The position numbers and the translations under genes are program-made. This document shows positions 806 to 21,100 of a stretch of 64,000 nt of DNA, piece by piece (position 1 is the first letter of the stretch; the number at the start of each line of letters is the position of its first letter). The DNA comes from Sphingomonas telluris (GTDB lineage: Bacteria; Pseudomonadota; Alphaproteobacteria; Sphingomonadales; Sphingomonadaceae): assembly GCF_022568775.1 (NCBI RefSeq), contig NZ_JAKZHW010000002.1:66001-130000 (forward strand), in the 5' to 3' direction. A model generated the notes under the pieces. It did no database searches and was not told where the DNA came from. It saw only the letters and a list, made by a program, of their open reading frames with translations.

Positions 806-1948
806 ATGGCACTGACGATTTCGAGCGCATTCGACGCCGGCAATATCCGCGTTGTGAAACAGGACGGCGACAAGGCTGACCTGGAAATCGTCAAGGACCA
901 CATGTCCGACTTCTACCAGTGGTTCTACTTCCGGGTTGCCGGGGGAGAAGGCCGCGAGCTGACTCTGCGCATCACCAATTGCGCGGGCTCAGCCTATCCC
1001 AACGGCTGGCCGGACTACAAAGCAGTCGTTTCCCCTGACCGCGAGGAGTGGTTGCGGGTCCAGGACACGAGCTACGCCGACGGCGTCCTCACCATCCGCT
1101 TCACTCCCGACACCGACTGTGTCTGGGTCGCCTATTTCGCGCCTTACTCGATGGAGCGTCACCACGACCTGATCGCGACCTACGCGTCGCTTCCGATCGT
1201 CGACTATGCGTCGCTCGGCAAGTCGCTCGACGGCCAGGATATCGACTGCCTCAAGGTTGGTGACGGCGCCCTGAACGTCTGGCTCTACGCGCGCCAGCAT
1301 CCGGGTGAGTCCATGGCCGAGTGGTGGATGGAAGGCGCGCTCGAAAAGCTGTGCGACCCTGAAGACCCAGTCGCCCGCGTCCTCCGCCGCGACTGCACCT
1401 TCCGCATCGTTCCCAACATGAACCCTGACGGGTCGCGGCGCGGCCACCTGCGGACCAACGCCGTCGGCGTGAACCTCAATCGCGAATGGCATGCCCCGAC
1501 GGCCGAAAAGAGCCCGGAAGTCCTCGCCGTCCGCAACGCGATGGACGAGACGGGCGTCGACTTCGCCATGGACGTGCACGGCGACGAAGCGATTCCGGCG
1601 AACTTCCTGGCCGGTTTCGAGGGCATCCCCTCGCTGACCGACCGCCAGCTGGGTCTCTTCAACAGCTTTTCCGACGCGCTGGAACGCATCTCGCCCGACT
1701 TCCAGACCAGCCAAGGCTATGAAATCCCGGCGCCGGGCCAAGCGAACATGTCCATGTCCACGACGCAGCTGGCCGAACGCTACGGCTGCGTCTCGATGAC
1801 GCTCGAAATGCCGTTTAAGGACAATTTCGACCTTCCCGATCCGCTCTACGGTTGGAGCCCCGAGCGGTCGAAGTTCCTGGCCTTCGCCTGCCTCGATGCG
1901 CTGCACGCGATCCTGCCGGACCTCGCGAAGGCCAAGTCGGAGAAATAG
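806..1948 (+). CDS. M14 family zinc carboxypeptidase, cytosolic CCP-like
   Basis: This 380-residue protein has the layout of the cytosolic carboxypeptidase (CCP/AGBL-like) branch of M14: a beta-rich N-terminal domain (about 1-125) followed by the peptidase domain. Visible catalytic elements are the HPGE zinc motif (His165, Glu168), NPDGSRRG and NLNREW segments for substrate binding, the third zinc ligand in DVHGDE (His258), and the general base in TLEMPF (Glu334). There is no signal peptide, so it should act in the cytoplasm. The ATG at 806 is the first start that gives the complete N-terminal domain. gpmA follows after 2 bp, so the two are probably co-transcribed. The natural substrate of bacterial members is not known to me. 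Confidence 0.88.
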
Positions 1949-1950
1949 GA

Positions 1951-2643
1951 ATGCCGCAGCTCGTCCTCATCCGCCACGGCCAGTCCCAGTGGAACCTCGA
2001 GAACCGCTTCACGGGCTGGTGGGACGTCGATCTTTCTGATCAGGGCGTGGCCGAAGCGCGCGCCGCCGGCGCGTTGCTGAGGGAGCGCGGGTTCGAGTTC
2101 GACCGCTGCTTCACCAGCGTCTTGACCCGCGCGATCCGGACGCTCCACTTGGTCCTTCATGAGCTCGACAGCCTGTGGCTTCCGGTCGCCAAGGACTGGC
2201 ACCTGAACGAGCGTCACTACGGCGGGCTGACGGGCCTCAACAAGCAGGAGATGATCGACAAGGTCGGGGCTGAGCAGGTCAAGACCTGGCGCCGATCCTA
2301 CGACATCCCGCCGCCGCCGCTGCCCAGCGACAGCCCCTACGACGTCTCCACGGACCGCCGCTACAACGGCATCCCCGTCCCGGTTACCGAAAGCCTCAAG
2401 GACACAATCGCTCGCGCGCTGCCCTATTACGAGCTGGAGATCGTGCCGGCGCTCCGGCGCGATGAGCGCGTGCTTGTCGCCGCGCATGGCAATTCCATCC
2501 GCGGCATCATCAAGCATCTCTCGAAGATCGGCGACGACGAGATCGTCGGTGTCGAGATCCCGACGGGCCAGCCGCTCGTTTACGAGCTGAACGAGGACCT
2601 AAGCGTCCGGGAAAGCTATTATCTCAGCGAGCGCGCGGCTTAA
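1951..2643 (+). CDS. gpmA: 2,3-bisphosphoglycerate-dependent phosphoglycerate mutase
   Basis: It interconverts 3- and 2-phosphoglycerate in glycolysis and gluconeogenesis. The 230-residue protein starts [15 protein letters not shown] with the phosphoacceptor His9 in the RHG motif, continues with the FTGWWDV and [13 protein letters not shown] segments of the dPGM active site, and ends with the second catalytic histidine in [10 protein letters not shown] chose ATG 1951 although the frame is open further upstream, because homology begins there and a GGAG-like site overlaps the stop region of the carboxypeptidase gene. Slightly shorter than the E. coli enzyme (about 250 residues), normal for alphaproteobacteria. 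Confidence 0.95.
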
Positions 2644-2652
2644 GGCAGCACG

Positions 2653-3243
2653 TTAGGCAGCGACCGAGCTGCCGCCCTTCTGCAGGTACATCGACTCGTC
2701 GGCGCGGGCCATGACGCTTTCCGGCCCGTCGTTCGGCTCGATGGTGGCGATGCCGATGGCAACGCTCAGCGGCAGGCACGTCCCCTCGAAGCAGAATTCG
2801 CATCCCGCGACCAGCGACCCGAGTCTCTGCGCCGTTTCCCGCGCGCTGGTCTCATCAGCGCGCTCCAGCAGGATCGCGAATTCGTCGCCACCGATTCGGG
2901 CAACGCAGTCGCTCTTCCGCACCCCTTCGGAGAGAAGTTCGGCGACCTGGATGAGCGCTTGGTCTCCGGCTAGGTGGCCGAAGCAGTCATTGATCATCTT
3001 GAGACCGTCGATGTCGACGAAGAGCACCGCCGAGCAGTCGTCGTAACGAGCAACGCGATCGATTGCGGCCTCAAGCTGGCGCATGAATCCGCGGCGGTTG
3101 GGAAGCTCGATCAGGACGTCCTGGTGAGCTAGCAGATCAAGCAATTGGACCCGCTGCTGCAGCTGAGCGACCTCACCGCGCAGCCGGCGGAGTTCCGCGA
3201 GCAGCACTTCCGGATCGGTCACATCGATCACGACATCATCCAT
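2653..3243 (-). CDS. GGDEF-domain diguanylate cyclase
   Basis: This 196-residue soluble protein has a short N-terminal coiled-coil-like helix (about 11-40, rich in Leu, Arg and Gln) leading directly into a GGDEF domain. The active-site signature RIGGDEF is intact at 118-122, and RKSD (109-112), five residues before it, fits the RxxD inhibitory I-site, so an active, product-inhibited c-di-GMP synthase is likely. No transmembrane or sensory domain is present. The usual DxLTGLPNR segment reads DVLIELPNR, a small deviation. The gene converges on gpmA. A PilZ protein, a candidate c-di-GMP receptor, is encoded 2.5 kb away. Confidence 0.9.
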   Translation of the reverse strand: MDDVVIDVTDPEVLLAELRRLRGEVAQLQQRVQLLDLLAHQDVLIELPNRRGFMRQLEAAIDRVARYDDCSAVLFVDIDGLKMINDCFGHLAGDQALIQVAELLSEGVRKSDCVARIGGDEFAILLERADETSARETAQRLGSLVAGCEFCFEGTCLPLSVAIGIATIEPNDGPESVMARADESMYLQKGGSSVAA

Positions 3244-3387
3244 AGCCGAACCGGATTCCCCTTGTTCATGTGAGACATAGCCTGATTCGGGCCCTGTTTA
3301 AATCCTGACTTTGCCCGAGGCGTTGCACCCGTCCGTCCATGTTCCTAAACGGCACAGCTCCGGAGGCAGAGGGAAACAGGCTCGGAA

Positions 3388-3870
3388 ATGGCGCAGCCGC
3401 TCGTCGGGATCATCATGGGCAGCAGCTCCGACTGGGAGACGATGCGCCACGCCGCCGACACGCTGAAAGCGTTGGGCGTCGAGCATGAGGTAAAGATCGT
3501 CTCGGCCCACCGCACTCCGAAGCGCCTTTACGACTATGCGGCCTCGGCGAAAGAGCGCGGGCTAAAGCTCATCATTGCAGGTGCCGGGGGCGCCGCACAC
3601 CTGCCCGGGATGGCCGCTTCCATGACCAGCCTTCCCGTCCTCGGCGTTCCAGTCGAAAGCCAGGCGCTGAAGGGTATGGATAGCTTGCTTTCCATCGTCC
3701 AGATGCCCGCCGGCGTGCCGGTCGGAACGCTGGCCATCGGACGCGCGGGGGCGGTCAACGCGGGTCTGCTCGGCGCCTCGATCCTGGCAATTACAGACGA
3801 CCAATTGGCCGCTCGCGTCGAACGCTACCGCGAGGAACAAACCGCCGCGGTGGCCGATAGTCCGGAATGA
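3388..3870 (+). CDS. purE: 5-(carboxyamino)imidazole ribonucleotide mutase
   Basis: PurE (class I) converts N5-CAIR to CAIR in purine biosynthesis. The 160-residue length is normal, and the N-terminal [13 protein letters not shown] and SAHRTPKR segments form the characteristic nucleotide-binding active site. The later [11 protein letters not shown] loop is also typical. The stop codon overlaps the purK start by 4 bp (ATGA, 3867-3870), so the two are translationally coupled. Confidence 0.97.
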
Positions 3871-4931
3871 TCGTCCCGCCAGGTTCATCCATAGGCATTG
3901 TCGGAGGCGGCCAGCTCGGCCGCATGCTCGCGGTCGCGGCGGCGCAGCTTGGGTACAAGTGCCATATCTTCGATCCGCATGAGGACCCGCCAGCCGCGCA
4001 CGTCGCCGCCGGATTTACGCGCGGCGCCTATGAAGATGCGGAAGCGCTCGCGGAGTTCGCGACCCAGGTCGATGTTATCACCTATGAGTTCGAGAACCTG
4101 CCTGTCGGACCGCTCGCCGTCCTCGGCCCGAAGTTGCGCCCCGGCACCCGCTCGCTCGCGGTGGCGCAGGACCGCGCCGTCGAAAAGCAGTTCATCGAGG
4201 AATGCGGGGCCACAGTCGCTGCCTGGCGGTCCGTCGACAGCGCGGACGACGTCGAGCGCGCCGTCGCCGAGCTCGGCACGCCGATCGTCCTCAAGACCCG
4301 CCGCTACGGCTATGACGGAAAGGGCCAGGCGTGGATCCGCAATCCGTCCGAGGCGCAGTCCGCATGGGATTCGATCGGCCACGAGCCCGCCGTCGCTGAG
4401 GCAGGCGTCGAGTTCGACGCTGAATTCTCCGTCATCGTAGCGCGCTGGGAAGACGGACGGACGACGTTCTGGGACAGCCCGGACAACGTCCACCGTGAAG
4501 GCATCCTACGCACGTCGACCGTGCCGCCGCCACCGGTAATCGCGGGGCAGGTCGAGCACGCGCGGACGGCCGCCGCGAACATCGCGAGCGCACTCGATCA
4601 CGTCGGGGTCCTTACCGTGGAGTTCTTCGCCTCGCGCAACGGTCCCATCGTCAACGAGATCGCGCCGCGCGTTCACAACAGCGGCCACTGGACGATCGAG
4701 GGCGCCTTCACCTCGCAGTTCGAACAGCACATCCGCGCCGTCTGCGGCCTTCCGCCGGGCTCGACCGATCTCGCCTGTCACTCGGCGCGCATGGACAATC
4801 TCATCGGCGACGAGATCGCGGACTGGCAGGGGCTGCTCGCCGACCCCCACGCGCACGTGCACATTTATGGTAAGGGCGAGGCGCGGCCCGGCCGCAAGAT
4901 GGGCCACGTGACGAGGATCGACGTCGGATGA
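3867..4931 (+). CDS. purK: 5-(carboxyamino)imidazole ribonucleotide synthase
   Basis: PurK makes N5-CAIR from AIR, ATP and bicarbonate and supplies PurE. The 354-residue protein shows the N-terminal [11 protein letters not shown] nucleotide fold, the ATP-grasp lysine region ([17 protein letters not shown]) and the C-terminal [21 protein letters not shown] motif of the family. It overlaps purE by 4 bp and the downstream GST gene by 4 bp (4928-4931), making a three-gene operon. Confidence 0.97.
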
Positions 4932-5665
4932 AGATCATCGGGAGCTTCGTCAGCCCCTACGTCCGCAAGGTGCTGGCCTGCATGCACCTCAAGGGGCTCA
5001 GCTACGAGATCGATCCGATCACGCCCTTCTTCGGCAACGACGAGTTCCGCCGCCTCAGCCCGCTCTGCCGCATCCCGGTGCTGATCGACGGCGACTTCAC
5101 GACCAGCGATTCATCGGTGATCTGCGCCTATCTCGACGAGGCCTATCCCGGCCATCCGCTGTTGCCGGCCGACCCGAAGGATCGCGCCCGCGCCCGCTGG
5201 CTGGAGGAGTTCGCCGACACGCGCCTCGGGGACCTCTTCATCTGGGGCCTGTTCTACCAGAAGATCGTTCACCCGCTCGTTTGGGGCGAACCTGGCGACC
5301 AGGCGCGCATCGCCAAGACGCTGTCGGAAGATGCGCCGGCGGCGCTCGATTATCTCGAAGGCGAACTGCCCGAGACCGGCTGGCTGTTCGGCGACTTCGG
5401 CCTCGCCGACATCGCCATCGCCAGTTTCTTCCGCAACGCCGCCTATGCAGACTTCGAGCCCGACGCCGGCCGCTGGCCGCGTGTGGCCAGCTTCGTCGCT
5501 CGTGCCTTGGCCCACGACGCGTTCGCGTCCACGTTCCCGTTCGAGAACATCCAGCGAAGCGTCGACATCAAGGGCCGACGTCAGGCTTTGCTCGATGCTG
5601 GAGCCCCGCTTTGCGAGCTGACCCTCGGCGAGCCGGTCCCGAGGCGCGGCATGATGAGGCTTTAG
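4928..5665 (+). CDS. glutathione S-transferase family protein
   Basis: A 245-residue protein. Its N-terminal thioredoxin-like domain (about 1-78) has SPYVRKVLACMHLKG at the glutathione site, a cis-Pro segment (CRIPVLIDG) and the TSDSSVICAYLDEA glutathione-contact motif. An all-helical C-terminal domain includes FGLADIAIASFF, the N-capping motif region of GSTs. The substrate cannot be predicted. It overlaps purK by 4 bp, an association that need not be functional. Confidence 0.88.
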   Translation: MKIIGSFVSPYVRKVLACMHLKGLSYEIDPITPFFGNDEFRRLSPLCRIPVLIDGDFTTSDSSVICAYLDEAYPGHPLLPADPKDRARARWLEEFADTRLGDLFIWGLFYQKIVHPLVWGEPGDQARIAKTLSEDAPAALDYLEGELPETGWLFGDFGLADIAIASFFRNAAYADFEPDAGRWPRVASFVARALAHDAFASTFPFENIQRSVDIKGRRQALLDAGAPLCELTLGEPVPRRGMMRL

Positions 5666-13748: not shown

Positions 13749-15566
13749 ATGAAAGACATTACTAAGATCCGCAATTTTTCGATTATTGCGCATATCGATC
13801 ATGGGAAGAGCACGCTTGCCGACCGGCTGATCCAGCGGACGGGCGGGCTGACCGAGCGCGAGATGACGCACGGGCAGATCCTCGACAACATGGAGATCGA
13901 GCAGGAGCGCGGAATCACCATCAAGGCGCAGACCGTGCGGCTGGAATGGAACGGCTATGAGCTGAACCTGATGGACACGCCCGGGCACGTGGACTTCGCG
14001 TATGAGGTCTCGCGGAGCCTCGCGGCTTGCGAGGGCGCGTTGCTGGTCGTGGACGCGGCGCAGGGTGTCGAGGCGCAGACGCTCGCCAACGTCTACCAGT
14101 CGATCGAGCACGACCATGAGATCGTGCCGGTCATCAACAAGATCGATTTGCCGGCCGCTGACCCGGAGGGCGTCAGGCAGGAAATCGAGGAAATCATCGG
14201 CCTGGACGCGAGCGAGGCGGTCCTGGCTTCTGCGAAGAGCGGCATCGGCATCGACGAGGTTCTTCAAGCCATCGTCGACAAAATTCCGCCTCCAAAAGGA
14301 GACAGGGACGCGCCGCTGAAGGCGATGCTCGTCGATAGCTGGTACGACCCGTACCTAGGCGTCGTCATCCTGGTGCGCGTGATGGACGGGGTCATCCGCA
14401 AGGGCGCGCAGATCAAGTTCATGGCCGCCGGCACGATGCACCTGGTCGACCGCGTCGGCTGCATGCGCCCGAAGATCGAGCAGCTGCAGGAGCTCGGCCC
14501 CGGCGAGATCGGCTTCATCACCGCGCAGATCAAGGAAGTCGCGGAAACCCGCGTGGGCGACACGATCACCGATGCGAAGCGCCCCGCCGCCGAGCCGCTT
14601 CCCGGCTTCAAGGAAGTCCAGCCGGTCGTCTTCTGCGGCCTGTTCCCGGTCGACGCCAACGACTTCGAGAAGCTGCGCGACAGCCTCTACAAGCTGCGCC
14701 TCAACGACGCCTCGTTCAGCTTCGAGATGGAAAGCAGCGCGGCACTCGGCTTCGGCTTCCGCTGCGGCTTCCTCGGCCTATTGCACCTCGAGATCATCCA
14801 GGAGCGGCTGACCCGCGAATACGACCTGGACCTGATCACCACGGCGCCGAGCGTCGTCTACAAGATCCACCTCAGCCATTCGAAGAACGAAGCGGCGAAG
14901 GTCATCGAGCTGCACAACCCCGCGGATATGCCCGACCCCAACCGGATCGAGATGATCGAGGAGCCGTGGATCGACGCGACCATCTACGTCCCCGACGAAT
15001 ATCTCGGCTCCATCCTGAAGCTGTGCCAGGACCGCCGCGGCATCCAGAAGGACCTGACCTACGTCGGCACCGGAAGCCATGCGCGGGCGATGCTGCGCTA
15101 CGAGCTGCCGCTCAACGAAGTGGTGTTCGACTTCTACGACCGGCTGAAGTCGATCAGCCGCGGCTACGCCAGCTTCGACTATCACCAGATCGGCCACCGC
15201 GAGGGCGACCTCGTGAAGATGAGCATCCTCGTCAACAACGAGCCCGTCGACGCGCTGAGCATGATCGTCCACCGCGGCAACGCCGAGGCACGCGGCCGCG
15301 GCATGTGCGAGCGCCTGAAGGACCTGATCCCCAGGCACATGTTCAAGATCCCGATCCAGGCCGCGATCGGCGGCAAGGTCATCGCCCGCGAAACCATCGC
15401 CGCTTTGCGCAAGGACGTGACCGCCAAATGCTACGGCGGCGACGCGACGCGGAAGCGGAAGCTGCTGGAGAAGCAGAAGGAAGGTAAGAAGCGGATGCGG
15501 GAGTACGGCAGCGTCTCGATCCCGCAGGATGCGTTTATCGCGGCGCTGCGGATGGGGGAGGAGTAG
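13749..15566 (+). CDS. lepA: elongation factor 4 (LepA), ribosomal back-translocase
   Basis: A 605-residue translational GTPase. It shows the G1 motif [10 protein letters not shown], the switch [10 protein letters not shown], the [10 protein letters not shown]4 motif, and the LepA-specific C-terminal domain with the [26 protein letters not shown] region (about 555-578). ATG 13749 gives the standard [18 protein letters not shown]-terminus; upstream frame is non-coding. It marks the conserved chromosomal side of a lower-GC insertion that begins about 110 bp downstream. Confidence 0.97.
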
Positions 15567-15678
15567 CCGAGCGCAGCGCCGCCGACGCGAAGCGTCGCCG
15601 AAGCAGCGCGTAGAGACTACGACGACCCGGCCGGCGCGCGAGCGAACGGCCTAAGCCGAGAAGCGAGACGCGTCCGAC

Positions 15679-15701
15679 GTCACGGGATTTAATCCCGTGA
15701 C
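15679..15701. repeat. perfect inverted repeat at the island edge
   Basis: GTCACGGGATT-T-AATCCCGTGAC is an 11-bp perfect inverted repeat around one base. It lies between the lepA stop and the stop of the ABC ATPase gene, so it could terminate either transcript. It sits exactly where the base composition changes, so it may also mark an integration boundary. Confidence 0.55.
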
Positions 15702-15707
15702 GATTGT

Positions 15708-17633
15708 TCATCCCTCTATCCAGTCGTCCGGGATGAGTTTGTTTCCACCTCTCCATCGTTCGACCACCGACGATTGGAACCAATCTCCGGCTTCGTCGGC
15801 GTGGTCCACGACAATGATTTGAAAACCATCAGTAGCGGCGCGATCCCACAAGAACCGGAAAAGCCGGACCACCGCCTTACGATCATCGTCCTCAACAGCC
15901 AGCTGATCTAGTTGATCGTCGCTCACCGGGTAGTGAGCCTTCGACGGCTGGTCCAAAACCAAGAAAGCTGGCACCGGTCGATTACGAATCCTAAACCAAA
16001 GGTGGAGCGCCACATGGGTGATGATATGGCAACCGACCCAATTGTCGCCGCTACCCATCTGTTCGAGGCGAATTGCACCATTCGGAGTGTCCGCGACGAC
16101 GGTTAGCCGCTTGAAATCCAGCCTGGTTCGCCCTTCGGAATGTTCAAGCTCAAGGGCGCGTGCATAGTCCGTCATGAAGTTCGAGAGATTTGTCTCAGCA
16201 TTGCGCAGACGGTCTTCAAAAGTGTCGCCGGCGAGCTTTGATTCAAGTTGCTCAATACGATAGCGAAGCAGTTCAATTTGAGAGTGCAGATCGCCCTCAT
16301 TGCTTTCGCTTCGATTTTCCAAAAACGAGGTGATCCGACCCTGCACTCGCGACCGCTGCAGTGCCTCTTCTCGTAGACGCTTAATCGCGTCTTGCTGATC
16401 CACGACCGCATTGACCTGCGCTTGGTTCGTTGAAAGACGAGACTCCAAATCCCGCCTTTGTTTCCGAAGTTCAGCCACATATGACTGGAGGCGGGGGTTA
16501 TTCTCATGCAGTGCCGATATTCGCGCGCCTACGTCAGATAGCTCGTTCTTTAGATCCGCAAGCGTCGAAGTAAGCTGAGGCACGTGAGAATCGCACAAGG
16601 GACAGATGGTAACACCATTGCTGTCCGTCGCGACAATCGAAAGAGCCCTCAGTCGCGCTGTTTGTTCGGAGAGTTCTCGCTGATATGCGTCTCTATTAGA
16701 CGCGAGGAGAAGCGCTTCCTCTATCTTCTGTCCGATATCAAAGAATTCGCTACGGAGAGCTTCACGTTCCAGCATCAACTCGTCGAGTTCGGTTCGCTCA
16801 CCGCTAGTTACGTCATTCCTGATCGGCGCCTCCGCGGCCAGTGACAATAGTTCGAAGGTCTGATCCGCACTGGACGGGCGAGCTTCGAGAGCAATCAAAC
16901 CAACGTCGCGAGCCTCAGCGAGCAGTGAGCCTGCTCTAGCTAGGCTTGTTTCTTCCCAACTGATCGTCGCATCGAGTTGTCGCTGGATGAGCCGGAGATC
17001 TCTACGCAGCTGATTGAGTTCGAGCTGCTCTTGTAGCTCAGTTTCCGAGACCGCACCGACGAAGAAAGGAAGAGTGTCTTTGATAGCTTGAGCTACAAAG
17101 CTATCTTGTTGATTGAAGAATAACTGATTCTTGTTGTCGATCAGACTCTGGTCCTGAAAGCAGTAAATCCGAGAATGTGAGAAGTTCGCTTCTAGCGGCG
17201 GACGGTGATAGCCTTCTGGTGCAACAAAGAGGTTTTCAGGGAGGCCTACGTATCTGGACAGCGTGAGCTTGAGTGAATCTATGGTCGCGTTCTGTGAGAG
17301 ATTCTCAAGCGCTGGTGCCTCATCAGAGTCTTGAAAGCGCACGTCGATTTCGGAACTTGTTGCCTTACCTCCAGTGGGATTGCGGCGCGCTATTAAGAGG
17401 TATTTTTCGCCGTCGGTCAAAACGACCGCATACCACGCAACCTTCCGCCGGATGACACCCTGAGGAACGTGACATTCACCGGAGCCCAAACAGTAATCGA
17501 TAATGTGAATTAGGGCCGATTTACCGGTCTTTGACTCACCAGTGATTATGCTCAGCCCGTGAGCGTTGAACTCGACGGAGCGGACTTCTCCTTGGTGGCC
17601 GTAGACGAGCAATTTACTTATAGTGATCTTCAA
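15708..17633 (-). CDS. ABC-3C system ATPase, DUF3732-like (SMC/Rad50 type)
   Basis: A 641-residue SMC/RecN-like ATPase and the probable motor or sensor of an ABC-three-component system. Walker A is GESKTGKS (32-39). Two coiled-coil arms (about 200-330 and 355-500) flank a zinc-hook-like CPLC (344-347). The C-terminal lobe has the signature-like QMGSGDNWVG (near 525-534), the Walker B-like FLVLDQPS (557-564, with Q after D as I recall for DUF3732) and a switch histidine in VVDHADE. Translation starts at TTG 17633, overlapping the middle-component gene by 20 bp. GC is clearly lower than in flanking genes: the 60 bases from 17101 have 23 G/C. Confidence 0.85.
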   Translation of the reverse strand: MKITISKLLVYGHQGEVRSVEFNAHGLSIITGESKTGKSALIHIIDYCLGSGECHVPQGVIRRKVAWYAVVLTDGEKYLLIARRNPTGGKATSSEIDVRFQDSDEAPALENLSQNATIDSLKLTLSRYVGLPENLFVAPEGYHRPPLEANFSHSRIYCFQDQSLIDNKNQLFFNQQDSFVAQAIKDTLPFFVGAVSETELQEQLELNQLRRDLRLIQRQLDATISWEETSLARAGSLLAEARDVGLIALEARPSSADQTFELLSLAAEAPIRNDVTSGERTELDELMLEREALRSEFFDIGQKIEEALLLASNRDAYQRELSEQTARLRALSIVATDSNGVTICPLCDSHVPQLTSTLADLKNELSDVGARISALHENNPRLQSYVAELRKQRRDLESRLSTNQAQVNAVVDQQDAIKRLREEALQRSRVQGRITSFLENRSESNEGDLHSQIELLRYRIEQLESKLAGDTFEDRLRNAETNLSNFMTDYARALELEHSEGRTRLDFKRLTVVADTPNGAIRLEQMGSGDNWVGCHIITHVALHLWFRIRNRPVPAFLVLDQPSKAHYPVSDDQLDQLAVEDDDRKAVVRLFRFLWDRAATDGFQIIVVDHADEAGDWFQSSVVERWRGGNKLIPDDWIEG

Positions 17634-18123
17634 ATCTAACCCCCAACGCCGTGAACACTGTTGCGGGAGTTCCAGCGGCGGCCAGCCACTTTCCTACAAA
17701 GTGCGATTTTTTCAGGATGTTCTCGACTTCGGTTGAGCCGCTTTGCCCAGTGTACCTCTTTAACGAGGCATTCGGCTTGGCGAAAAGAGAAGCGTCCCCT
17801 GAGAGTTCTGCCAGTCCCCCGAGTGTCGCGAGAAGAATGCCTTTGGAAGAGTAAGGTGAGAGTTCTGCAACTCGCTGAGGGAACGTAGCAATGACCTCCC
17901 CGAACTTTTCAGTCCAAGGCAAGAGCCTGGTCGCAAGCGAACCAGGCAATTTTGATCGGGTTTCCGAATGCAGAACAAATGGCGCGATCAGATATGCGTA
18001 GGCGAAAGGAAGCCCGGAACCCGTAACTTCAACATATCCTTCTGTTGCCCGCGCAATTGTCGCGCCGGTGAAGGCGGGGTTGAGCAAACGTATGCGTTCG
18101 CGACCTGCCCATTGATCAGCCAT
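17614..18123 (-). CDS. ABC-3C system middle component
   Basis: A 169-residue protein between ATPase and effector genes. The N-terminal LLNPAFTGATIARATEGY and the later APFVLHSETRSKLP match the pattern I recall for ABC-3C middle components of the type paired with DUF3732 ATPases. These are thought to bridge the ATPase and the effector. ATG 18123 overlaps the preceding stop as ATGGCTGA (8 bp); a longer frame to 18159 is possible but would overlap more. No membrane segment. The function is inferred from family and gene order. Confidence 0.75.
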   Translation of the reverse strand: MADQWAGRERIRLLNPAFTGATIARATEGYVEVTGSGLPFAYAYLIAPFVLHSETRSKLPGSLATRLLPWTEKFGEVIATFPQRVAELSPYSSKGILLATLGGLAELSGDASLFAKPNASLKRYTGQSGSTEVENILKKSHFVGKWLAAAGTPATVFTALGVRFEDHYK

Positions 18124-18550
18124 CTTTGAAAAGCGCCTCATAGTCTGGGTGCCAGCCAACCTTCATCTGATCGGCGAGCGCGTGATAAGATCCACTCGTC
18201 AGGAACTGTGCTCTTGCGTTTCGAATGGGCACTTCCTGCTCTTCGGCCCAGCCCAGCAGAGTCCGGCCCCATTTGCATTTCGCGACGTCATCCGCGCTGC
18301 TATCTAGCTCGTCGCGAAGAATGGCAGATTTTCTTTCCCATCGCTCAGCCAGCGATTGGTCGTAAGCGGCCAGTTCATCAGGATTTACCTTGAACTCGCG
18401 AACCCATTTTGACCGTTGAGCGCCGGACTTGAAAAAGTCCTTCTGCGCCCGGCGAATTCTAGAAGACCCAGCGTTAAGAGCCTTGATCTGCCTGACGAAG
18501 ATCCGACCATCTAGCGGTTCCAGCGCCTCTTCGTCCTCGACGTCTTTCAC
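18116..18550 (-). CDS. ABC-3C effector, C-terminal domain part (after frameshift)
   Basis: This frame encodes the conserved ABC-3C C-terminal domain: LDGRIFVRQI near its start, then AQRSKWVREF, GRTLLGWAEEQ, and the closing FLTSGSYHALADQ...VGWHPDYE. The domain normally lies at the C-terminus of the effector. Here it is in the +1 frame relative to the nuclease-like half encoded just upstream (18474-19265). A GTG at 18550 could serve as an independent start but has no good Shine-Dalgarno, so I read both frames as one gene broken by a single extra base, or decoded by frameshifting. Confidence 0.75.
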   Translation of the reverse strand: MKDVEDEEALEPLDGRIFVRQIKALNAGSSRIRRAQKDFFKSGAQRSKWVREFKVNPDELAAYDQSLAERWERKSAILRDELDSSADDVAKCKWGRTLLGWAEEQEVPIRNARAQFLTSGSYHALADQMKVGWHPDYEALFKDG

Positions 18551-19265
18551 GAAGATAATCGATGCGTCCGCTCAGATCCAAAAGCTGTATCTTCGCTCCT
18601 GACCCTTTCGCCCATTCGCTGAAGACTTTGTCCGTCCACCAGCCTTCCAACTCATTCCGAAAGCGCGGCAATTCTTCCTGCGTGCAGACGAACGCAATTT
18701 CTTGTTCGATCTCGTCGCCGAGCGCAGAAAGTCCGGCGAATCCATGCACGGCGGTGACGACGCTGACCATTGCTTTCCGAACTGGCGGTGGCAGTTGGAG
18801 GAAATCACGTCGGTCATTCTTAGTGGTTTGATTCGTGGAGGAATTGGCGGCTTCAATCAGCTTTGTAAGCGCCGCTACTTCGTCATCAGTCGTTCGGTCC
18901 GGTCCGAGCAGGGCCATTCCGGAAGTCGGCACGAGTTGACCGTTTGTCACAAGAAACAGACGACTGCCGGGCACAATCGCACCGTCTCGAATCTGGCGAC
19001 TCCAGTTGCCGAGAGTCCGCCATACGGCGGCGTCGACATCCGAATATTCCTTATCTGTCTGAAGCGAGTGCTTGAGCTGCTCGAGGTCGGACTTCCCGGA
19101 TTCATATTCAATGGCCACGTCCTCAAGTCTCTCGATCGAGACCGCGGCTGTGGGATGTCTTTTTAGTGCCCTCAGCGCCCGCAGGAGCGCGTAACGGAGC
19201 TGGTAATAATATCCGGCCGCAGGACCTGACGCCTCGGAAGGCAGTGTATTTGGATTTACGGGCAC
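18474..19265 (-). CDS. ABC-3C effector, nuclease-like N-terminal part (frameshifted)
   Basis: A 263-residue frame starting at GTG 19265, 7 bp after the previous gene. Residues 12-70 resemble the DUF4297/Cap4-type restriction-endonuclease fold: an aromatic GYYYQLRYALL helix, an acidic strand SIERLEDVAIE (Glu45, Asp49) and the core SDLEQLKHS (Asp60, Glu62, Gln63, Lys65), fitting a PD-(D/E)xK or QxK active site. The last 25 or so residues (after YLRE) are out-of-frame, Arg/Gly-rich read-through, because the true continuation lies in the +1 frame (18116-18550). The cut is at or near the AAA at 18545-18547. Confidence 0.75.
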   Translation of the reverse strand: MPVNPNTLPSEASGPAAGYYYQLRYALLRALRALKRHPTAAVSIERLEDVAIEYESGKSDLEQLKHSLQTDKEYSDVDAAVWRTLGNWSRQIRDGAIVPGSRLFLVTNGQLVPTSGMALLGPDRTTDDEVAALTKLIEAANSSTNQTTKNDRRDFLQLPPPVRKAMVSVVTAVHGFAGLSALGDEIEQEIAFVCTQEELPRFRNELEGWWTDKVFSEWAKGSGAKIQLLDLSGRIDYLRERRRGRRGAGTARWSDLRQADQGS

Positions 19266-19272
19266 CAGTCGC

Positions 19273-19611
19273 CTACGATCCGCGATCCGTACTCGACGTC
19301 GACCCGATCTCAGAGAGCGGATTACGGCTGATCAGCCCCCACAGCCGCCCGTCTGTTTCAGAGCCTCTCGCGCCGAGCTCGATCAGATATTCTTTGGCAT
19401 GCTTCTCACTGAGACCTGTCACGCTCGCTAGCGTTTCGAGCTTCCGCCACCTCGGTCCGTCAGCAAGCATTTTCTTGAGCAGTTCTTCGACTGCGCGATC
19501 AAATTTTGGATATTTGCTCTGACGGCTGAGATGTGACGAAAGCCATGTGGTCGACAATGATCCTAATGTGCCAAGGGCTGCACCCAAAAGCACCCAAACG
19601 CCTTCGGCCAT
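19273..19611 (-). CDS. membrane-anchored winged-helix-like protein of the ABC-3C operon
   Basis: A 112-residue protein with one N-terminal transmembrane helix (about 5-24), a short basic linker and a C-terminal helical domain. The pattern FDRAVEELLKKML...LASVTGLSEKHAKEYL looks like a helix-turn-helix followed by a wing-like segment (GRLWGLISRNP). The start has a strong GGGGAGGGG site. It is the first gene of the four-gene operon and lies 7 bp before the effector start. It is not one of the three canonical components, and its role is unknown. Anchoring or sensing at the membrane is conceivable. Confidence 0.65.
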   Translation of the reverse strand: MAEGVWVLLGAALGTLGSLSTTWLSSHLSRQSKYPKFDRAVEELLKKMLADGPRWRKLETLASVTGLSEKHAKEYLIELGARGSETDGRLWGLISRNPLSEIGSTSSTDRGS

Positions 19612-19702
19612 GTCCCCTCCCCAGGAAACAAGTCGTCACTCGGCACGAACGCTTCATGGCCGTTATTTAGATTTTGTTCAACCAGCGGGGTTTGCGGGAA
19701 TC

Positions 19703-19867
19703 TCACCCAATCCGCCCCGCCTCCACATGCGCCAGCCATCGGCTGAACGCATCCGCCTCCTCCAACCCGTCCTCCGGCAGCTTCGCCCCGCCCGTCGCCA
19801 GCGGCTGCGGCGGCGGGTTGTGCGGGCGGCGCTCATATTCCGACGGCAAGGGCTTGCGGTTCTTCAT
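19703..19867 (-). CDS. small hypothetical protein (54 aa)
   Basis: MKNRKPLPSEYERRPHNPPP... is a short polar protein with a Pro-rich first half and an acidic/helical end (EEADAFSRWLAHVEAGRIG). Its ATG overlaps the stop of the preceding gene as ATGA (19864-19867), indicating translational coupling. Returning to high GC, it marks the right-hand end of the lower-GC island. No function known. Confidence 0.65.
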   Translation of the reverse strand: MKNRKPLPSEYERRPHNPPPQPLATGGAKLPEDGLEEADAFSRWLAHVEAGRIG

Positions 19868-20823
19868 GCCTGCTCTCCCTGCCGGATGAGGAAGTCCGCC
19901 TGGGCTTTCGCTTCCCATTCGATCTGTCTCGCCGCCTCCGCCGCCAGCTCGTCTCGTCTCGCCTGCCGCTGGGCCTCCGTGGTCATCTCGCTCCATTGTT
20001 CCTCGCTGTAGCCGGCGGCGGGCGGGGTGGTTGCTCCGACGTGGGCTCGGCTCGGTTCCAGGGCGTAATCGAAGAGATGCTGAAGGAAGCGCCGGGGCGG
20101 GTGTTCGGGGCGTTCGGGCTTGCCGGCCGCCGCCCATAGCTTGCGCCGCTGCTCGTCGAGCGCCGCGCTGAACGGTGTCTCCGCAATCCGGATCCAGCCG
20201 TGGCCGTCGCGGCGGAAGCTCGCCAGCAGGTCGAAGGCGGAGATGCTCAGCTCCGTCGCGGCGAGGTCGAGGCCGATCTCGATGAAGGTGATCTGGCGCA
20301 GGTAGAAATCGGCGGCGACGATATTGCCGGCGAGGCGCTCCTCCCGCTCCATGCGGACCTTGCCGAGATATTTGCGGACGATGTTCTCGATCACCTCCAG
20401 CTTCTGATCGTCGCTGATGGCGGGGTCGGGCTCCGGCTCGGCGCCGCGGAGGCGCGAGGGCGGGGCGAGCTGCGCATTGCGGGCGGCGGCATCGGCGACG
20501 CCCTGGGCGATCTTCATGCTGCCGTTCGCTTTCGCGATGGCCTTTGCGCGGTCGTAGGCGATGCGCAGGCTGGTGCTGCCGGGGCGCTTCAGAAGCTGGT
20601 CCATGCCGTAGGCGTTGCGGCCGATGGCGAGGGCGGCGCGGCGCTTCGACCCGGTGCTGGCGAGCAGGGCGATGAAGGCGCGCTGCGCATCCGCGTCCCA
20701 GCCGTTGACGCGCTGGCGGACGGGGACGGGCTCGAAATCGAGGAGGTCGCCGAGGTGGGAGAAGTCGCCCTGGCGGGCGGTGCCGGTGGCGCGACAGCGG
20801 TCGCAGATGACGGGGATGCTCAT
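19864..20823 (-). CDS. hypothetical protein with N-terminal helix-turn-helix-like segment
   Basis: A 319-residue soluble protein. Near the N-terminus is a single CxxC pair (ICDRCRATG). At about 40-95 comes an HTH-like segment (WDADAQRAFIALLASTGSKRR then AALAIGRNAYGMDQLLKRPG), a pattern recurrent in sphingomonads, where a tandem of short helices precedes a basic DRAKAIAKANG region. The remainder is helical, with charged linkers. It may bind DNA, but no target is visible. I start at ATG 20823, where the conserved part begins. Coupled to the small downstream gene. Confidence 0.65.
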   Translation of the reverse strand: MSIPVICDRCRATGTARQGDFSHLGDLLDFEPVPVRQRVNGWDADAQRAFIALLASTGSKRRAALAIGRNAYGMDQLLKRPGSTSLRIAYDRAKAIAKANGSMKIAQGVADAAARNAQLAPPSRLRGAEPEPDPAISDDQKLEVIENIVRKYLGKVRMEREERLAGNIVAADFYLRQITFIEIGLDLAATELSISAFDLLASFRRDGHGWIRIAETPFSAALDEQRRKLWAAAGKPERPEHPPRRFLQHLFDYALEPSRAHVGATTPPAAGYSEEQWSEMTTEAQRQARRDELAAEAARQIEWEAKAQADFLIRQGEQA

Positions 20824-21100
20824 CCGCGAGGGTGGATCAGACGAAATCCAAATAGGACAGCGGAAAGTGGCGTGAAGCTGCCCTACGGAGCGCTGCGGCT
20901 CAACACGCCAAGACAAACCGAAGTCGCGATTCTGTATCATCGCGGGACATTTTAATGGAGTGCCCGGAAACAGCCGTTATGGTAAATAAATCCCGCTCGG
21001 TACCGTGCAACGCGTGAAGTTCCGCCAAGGTGAACACCGCGTCCCAACCGGGCTCCACGGCACGATCCTCTGCGGCTTCACTCTGCAGAGGAGACTGGAA

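Follow-up and report, generated by a model that had tools for sequence, protein, structure and literature searches.

A type II Lamassu operon beside lepA in Sphingomonas telluris, probably acquired horizontally and since degraded

ABC-3C, Lamassu and DdmABC are names for a single superfamily of systems whose anti-phage and anti-plasmid activity has been demonstrated (PMC10586767, PMC12409362). On the published account, abnormal DNA is sensed by LmuB together with LmuC, and activation frees LmuA, which forms a tetramer in which the Cap4 nuclease is switched on (PMC12409362); docking is the role proposed for LmuA's C-terminal domain (PMC10586767). Here we describe a minus-strand island at positions 15708-19611 of a 64,000-nucleotide stretch of Sphingomonas telluris DNA (contig NZ_JAKZHW010000002.1, positions 66,001 to 130,000; hereafter the window), which lies between lepA and orf358, an open reading frame (ORF) of 358 codons. 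Judged by its sequence, the island is a member of the Lamassu (ABC-3C/DdmABC) family, type II, with a Cap4-like nuclease. Our overall reading, to which we assign a probability of roughly 80%, is that it is a horizontally acquired type II Lamassu with a Cap4-like effector, now degraded, in a possible lepA-orf358 hotspot. The original prediction for this DNA had recognised an ABC-3C design but took the system to be uncharacterised; that part we reject, as the island is a Lamassu/DdmABC, a type with tested activity and solved structures. The block had also been read as four genes with a one-gene effector, where we find five ORFs, the two effector pieces lying in different frames. In transcription order, with the break between those pieces, these are:

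19273..19611, minus strand: leader gene, 112 residues, with a hydrophobic N-terminus and a winged-helix-like domain, co-directional with the operon
18474..19265, minus strand: 5' piece of lmuA, a Cap4-like nuclease with an out-of-frame tail at its end (PADLOC, Pfam, solved chain, alignment)
18474..18568, minus strand: frame-break region, with a linker of 46 nucleotides (nt)
18116..18550, minus strand: 3' piece of lmuA, the putative docking domain CTD7 (C-terminal domain 7), in another frame than the nuclease (Pfam)
17614..18159, minus strand: lmuC, ABC-3C middle component 3, intact; start uncertain, 169 residues from a later ATG
15708..17633, minus strand: lmuB, a DUF3732 Rad50/SMC-like ATPase of 641 residues, intact (Pfam, PADLOC, solved chain, motifs)

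The identity of the ATPase and the middle component is clear from profile searches. LmuB matches Pfam DUF3732 (PF12532; 4.1e-51), the PADLOC LmuB model (1e-130, residues 1-638) and the solved Lamassu chain 9hqu (5.5e-59), making it an SMC/Rad50-like LmuB of the DUF3732 type. The three motifs named in the original prediction were confirmed at residues 32 (GESKTGKS, Walker A), 344 (CPLC, hook) and 559 (VLDQPS, Walker B with Q for E), the residue after CPLC being D, not G. A zinc hook and an E-to-Q Walker B are usual, not universal, in Lamassu, and here both agree with the description of LmuB in section 9 of PMC10586767. LmuC matches Pfam ABC-3C Middle Component 3 (PF20131; 6.6e-32), PADLOC LmuC (3.4e-5) and the C chains of solved Lamassu structures (3.8e-4), and the operon has the order lmuA-lmuC-lmuB. 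The window's own genome holds one copy of DUF3732 and, likewise, one of CTD7.

Both halves of LmuA were also recovered. The nuclease frame matches PADLOC LmuA (3.5e-32), the solved chain 9nxx (4.3e-5) and Pfam Cap4_nuclease (2e-5, slightly below the curated cut-off), and in the alignment it retains the QxK motif (EQLKH), which we take to be part of the active site. The smaller frame matches Pfam ABC-3C C-terminal domain 7 (PF20283; 2.3e-35) and chains of solved Lamassu structures (2.6e-7). Across the island, the solved structures matched were 9hqu, 9ny5, 9nxx and 9uxh. With curated Pfam models matching LmuB, LmuC and the C-terminal domain of LmuA, and PADLOC models matching too, the ABC-3C identity passes the profile check proposed for it in all three classes (DUF3732, middle component and C-terminal domain).

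The two domains are not, however, joined in one protein as an enzymatic N-terminal and an ABC-3C C-terminal part. The two ORFs overlap by 77 bp: the nuclease frame ends at a TAA at 18474, and the CTD7 frame, bounded by a TGA a little way upstream of its GTG, has that GTG as its sole start, without a visible ribosome-binding site. Because both LmuA domains match but lie in different frames, we file the island as a degraded descendant rather than a complete member. Among the 22 loci that we mapped for comparison (16 with an LmuB match, the other six with leader relatives), LmuA crosses the nuclease-CTD7 junction in a single frame in 14 of the 16 with LmuB (L002, L025-L033, L040 and L042-L044, of which L030 and L031 come from a single genome that carries two copies). 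In L002 and L026 the listed ORF has a late start, and for L002 the preceding part was confirmed to be in the same frame. The two exceptions are L024, where the gene runs off the contig, and L041, where it is interrupted by IS66. In the latter (1724-5501, a Methylocystis iwaonis plasmid) the IS66 element also breaks lmuA at the nuclease/C-terminal-domain junction.

A comparison of the linker points to the nature of the damage. Between the anchors LRE and FVRQ the window has 46 nt, against 24-32 in-frame residues (72-96 nt) in 15 of 15 comparators, namely the 14 single-frame loci plus the locus of a second genome of the genus, G400, with the anchors of distant rows set by alignment. In both nearest comparators, G400 and L002 (from Labrenzia sp. 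OB1), the linker is 24 residues long, so the deficit in the window is about 26 nt. An out-of-frame deletion of this size appears to inactivate LmuA.

We weighed two other explanations of the break. If it were an assembly or sequencing error, the operon would be an ordinary working Lamassu, which would suit the intact LmuB and LmuC, the strong domain matches in both LmuA pieces and the single assembly behind the frame break; yet what is missing is not one base but some 26 nt of a conserved linker, the assembly consists of 3 contigs at 99.99% completeness, and the genus mate G400 likewise has a broken copy at this site, which together leave an error with only an outside chance. Alternatively, nuclease and docking domain might work as two polypeptides made from overlapping frames. 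Both frames are indeed open and overlapping, with QxK and CTD7 retained, but the want of a ribosome-binding site at the only CTD7 start, the absent linker residues and the occurrence of such an architecture in 0 of 14 relative loci make a working split effector highly improbable.

What degradation by deletion would mean can be read from the published systems. In an intact system, Rad50-like LmuB and LmuC would sense abnormal DNA and hold LmuA, probably via its C-terminal domain, and the freed LmuA tetramer would cut DNA indiscriminately, leading to cell death or plasmid removal. Here, the out-of-frame shortening of the linker by about 26 nt separates the nuclease from the docking domain, so that LmuBC should be unable to hold or recruit the nuclease piece, and controlled activation should fail. 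Since this piece would escape LmuBC, the most likely state, by homology and the published mechanism, is loss of function of the operon, and the piece itself is presumably inactive, weak or little made, the host not having been killed. Several points weigh against this. The evidence for the break comes from one assembly of one strain, LmuB and LmuC are intact, as they would not necessarily be in a long-dead operon, and the nuclease QxK is intact. In addition, a study discussed in the review PMC12409362 reported residual protection in strains whose ddmABC genes were badly truncated, a result on which the review urges caution. The proposal that the island is a good defence candidate is weakened by the broken LmuA, while the family itself is a known anti-phage and anti-plasmid one.

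The leader gene had been proposed as a membrane-anchored helix-turn-helix-like first component of the system. Its hydrophobic N-terminus and a modelled helix-helix-strand-strand order make that description of the protein plausible, but the structure model is poor (mean predicted local distance difference test score 54) and the gene has no family match in Pfam, PADLOC or NCBIfam. In favour of its being a fourth subunit of the system, anchored in the membrane, it is co-directional and stands 7 bp before lmuA, shares the low guanine-plus-cytosine (GC) content of the island (0.555) and has a strong GGGGAGGGG ahead of its ATG. The distribution of its relatives argues otherwise. They were found at 0 of 17 other Lamassu loci (the 16 with LmuB and the G400 remnant), 15 of which are informative, the DNA upstream of lmuA being lost at a contig end in L024 and L028; a recurrent linkage to lmuA, lmuB or lmuC elsewhere was thus not seen (0/15). 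In the order draw (396 genomes), LmuB occurs in 12 and the leader in 7, with both only in the window's own genome. In the order, 6 of the other 395 genomes drawn carry a relative, as do 10 of 396 in the overlapping family draw, none of them from the window's genus; there was 1 relative (L122) among 29 candidates on viral contigs and no match to plasmids at E 1. The nearest relative (67%, G272) has a relaxase-like gene close by, and the others stand amid housekeeping-type genes or, in L122, phage-like genes (read by eye). A part in the system is accordingly improbable, and the leader is best taken as a small gene in its own right that heads this operon, not a general Lamassu part. We see only a very slight chance of a split-effector, membrane-tethered Lamassu with a free Cap4-like nuclease, a separate docking domain and a winged-helix fourth subunit. 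The leader-like family, a small one whose members combine a hydrophobic N-terminus with a winged-helix-like domain, was aligned as 12 sequences; it has W55, R56, A81, R82 and W91 among its invariant residues, and is found on viral, plasmid-like and chromosomal DNA (L122 4995-5318, L034 9040-9366, L035-L039 and L114-L117).

Turning to the origin of the operon, the predicted minus-strand, low-GC block beside lepA was confirmed. GC is 0.541 in the island and 0.644 in the 64-kb window, where none of 121 segments of 3904 bp, taken at steps of 500, is as poor (lowest 0.548, mean 0.645), and positions 17101-17160 contain 23 G+C in 60. The close spacing held: leader and nuclease ORFs are 7 bp apart, LmuC and LmuB overlap by 20 bp, and CTD7 and LmuC overlap by 44 bp if the longest LmuC ORF is used and by less with the later ATG (169 residues). 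In the genus, LmuB and likewise the LmuA nuclease occur in 2 of 71 genomes, the window's own and G400, in both directly after lepA, which rules out vertical conservation of the block next to lepA, a condition that the original prediction had named as one that would refute it.

The G400 copy has decayed differently. It keeps the nuclease, the linker and some 14 residues of CTD7; one large deletion then reaches to LmuB residue 380 or so and has removed LmuC and the N-terminal half of the ATPase. What remains of its LmuB is 67% identical to that of Labrenzia and 54% to that of the window, and in a tree of this part (17 rows, 263 C-terminal columns) G400 and Labrenzia are joined with support of 99/100. 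Sister status of the window and G400 copies is disfavoured (approximately unbiased test, p-AU 0.0053), in a tree that has some long branches and a decayed remnant and for a pair chosen after the identities had been seen. The simplest reading is two separate captures at one site, although the genus may instead have made one old capture, with a later transfer out of the G400 line into Labrenzia. Taken together, low GC, sporadic distribution and tree conflict support horizontal acquisition of the operon, from which we infer a history of insertion. Wider searches gave little: the 89 plasmid records with LmuB relatives are all below 60% identity, the plasmid DNA search gave a single match of 212 bp, the genome-contig scan yielded 1 relative (L002) from 34 candidate stretches, and 0 of 6 candidates on viral contigs proved to be relatives with LmuB as query. 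Within 15300-20100 the repeat search found none longer than 28 nt and none framing the island, no inverted repeat was reported, and no integrase is in view in the window. The surroundings of the island are as follows:

13752..15566, plus strand: lepA, left border of the interval
15678..15702, plus strand: terminator-like hairpin of 11 pairs between lepA and lmuB
19864..20940, minus strand: orf358, right border of the interval

Hairpins of this class are not significant as a class (5 sites in the region, 5.0 expected).

We compared the region downstream of lepA in 29 of 40 genus mates; the other 11 were left out, chiefly because their contigs were short or partial. In 13 of these 29, and in the window, the mapped part includes a relative of orf358 (in L111 as an 82-residue ORF only). 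The L104 and L113 loci are short, and G398/L100 was scored as lacking orf358, its relative being about 12 kb off. The 14 lepA-orf358 intervals carry restriction, methylation or defence genes in 9 cases, nothing large in 2 and weak or unknown cargo in 3:

Window: Lamassu
L085: SacI-type by Pfam, without a PADLOC match
L088: PDC-S60
L093 and L107: C5 methylase and restriction enzyme
L094: D12 methylase
L095: N6 methylase
L103 and L111: type IIG
L089 and L102: empty (in L102/G416, 25 bp between lepA and orf358)
L086, L097 and L110: weak or unknown, being TPR, Hsp70-like and PDC-M28C (4.6e-8), respectively

Of the intervals without orf358, 3 of 16 are defence-like (L092; L104, PDC-M41A; L109, HNH), a difference with Fisher p 0.024 for a split made after the data were seen. 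The scan mostly took the first large cargo gene only, and PADLOC covered 11 of 13 mates with orf358 (the other two being empty) but 5 of 16 without, which biases toward a hotspot. The lepA-orf358 interval is thus a possible chromosomal hotspot, gaining and losing defence genes in the genus, and we offer it as a lead; our literature search found no account of a lepA defence hotspot in such bacteria, which does not prove that none exists. The orf358 family has a conserved helical N-terminal part (DGWTPERQRAFI...), belongs to no Pfam family and occurs in 23 of 41 genomes of the genus, frequently more than once per genome. At eight regions that hold further members of the family, no defence genes were obvious nearby (ORF lists read by eye, without a family search), and orf358 is therefore not a general marker. 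Extra copies of the lepA 3' end, of about 70-180 bp (more than 1.1 kb in G398), also occur in several genus mates, most of them a short way past lepA, a hint that recombination has recurred at this place:

G306:C1:2021871-2021953
G261:C1:561954-562025
G422:C164:39816-39994
G120:C2:389047-389200
G418:C112:172-237
G398:C1:70524-71672

Near the window's lepA, no second copy longer than 14 nt was reported.

If our reading is right, a defence operon that appears complete in its domains can be wrecked at the effector, and domain-counting callers would report it as present. One genus would then hold two Lamassu systems of apparently different origin after lepA, both inactivated, and were this true at a larger scale, the cost of an acquired DNA-cutting abortive system would become testable. 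What stays of value is this pair of inactivated systems, together with the possible lepA-orf358 hotspot.

Set against type II Lamassu/DdmABC (9hqu, 9ny5, 9uxh), the island shares the order A-C-B, a DUF3732 ATPase with hook and Walker B Q, middle component 3, a Cap4-like nuclease and CTD7; it differs in that LmuA is split over two frames and is preceded by a 112-residue leader. The closest intact relative found, the Lamassu of Labrenzia sp. OB1, is 51% identical in LmuB, 36% in LmuC, 43% in the C-terminal domain and 41% in the nuclease; in contrast to the window, its LmuA is single-frame, it lacks a leader relative and it does not adjoin lepA. The G400 remnant (L092) resembles the island in lying immediately after lepA, in the same orientation, and in being broken as well.

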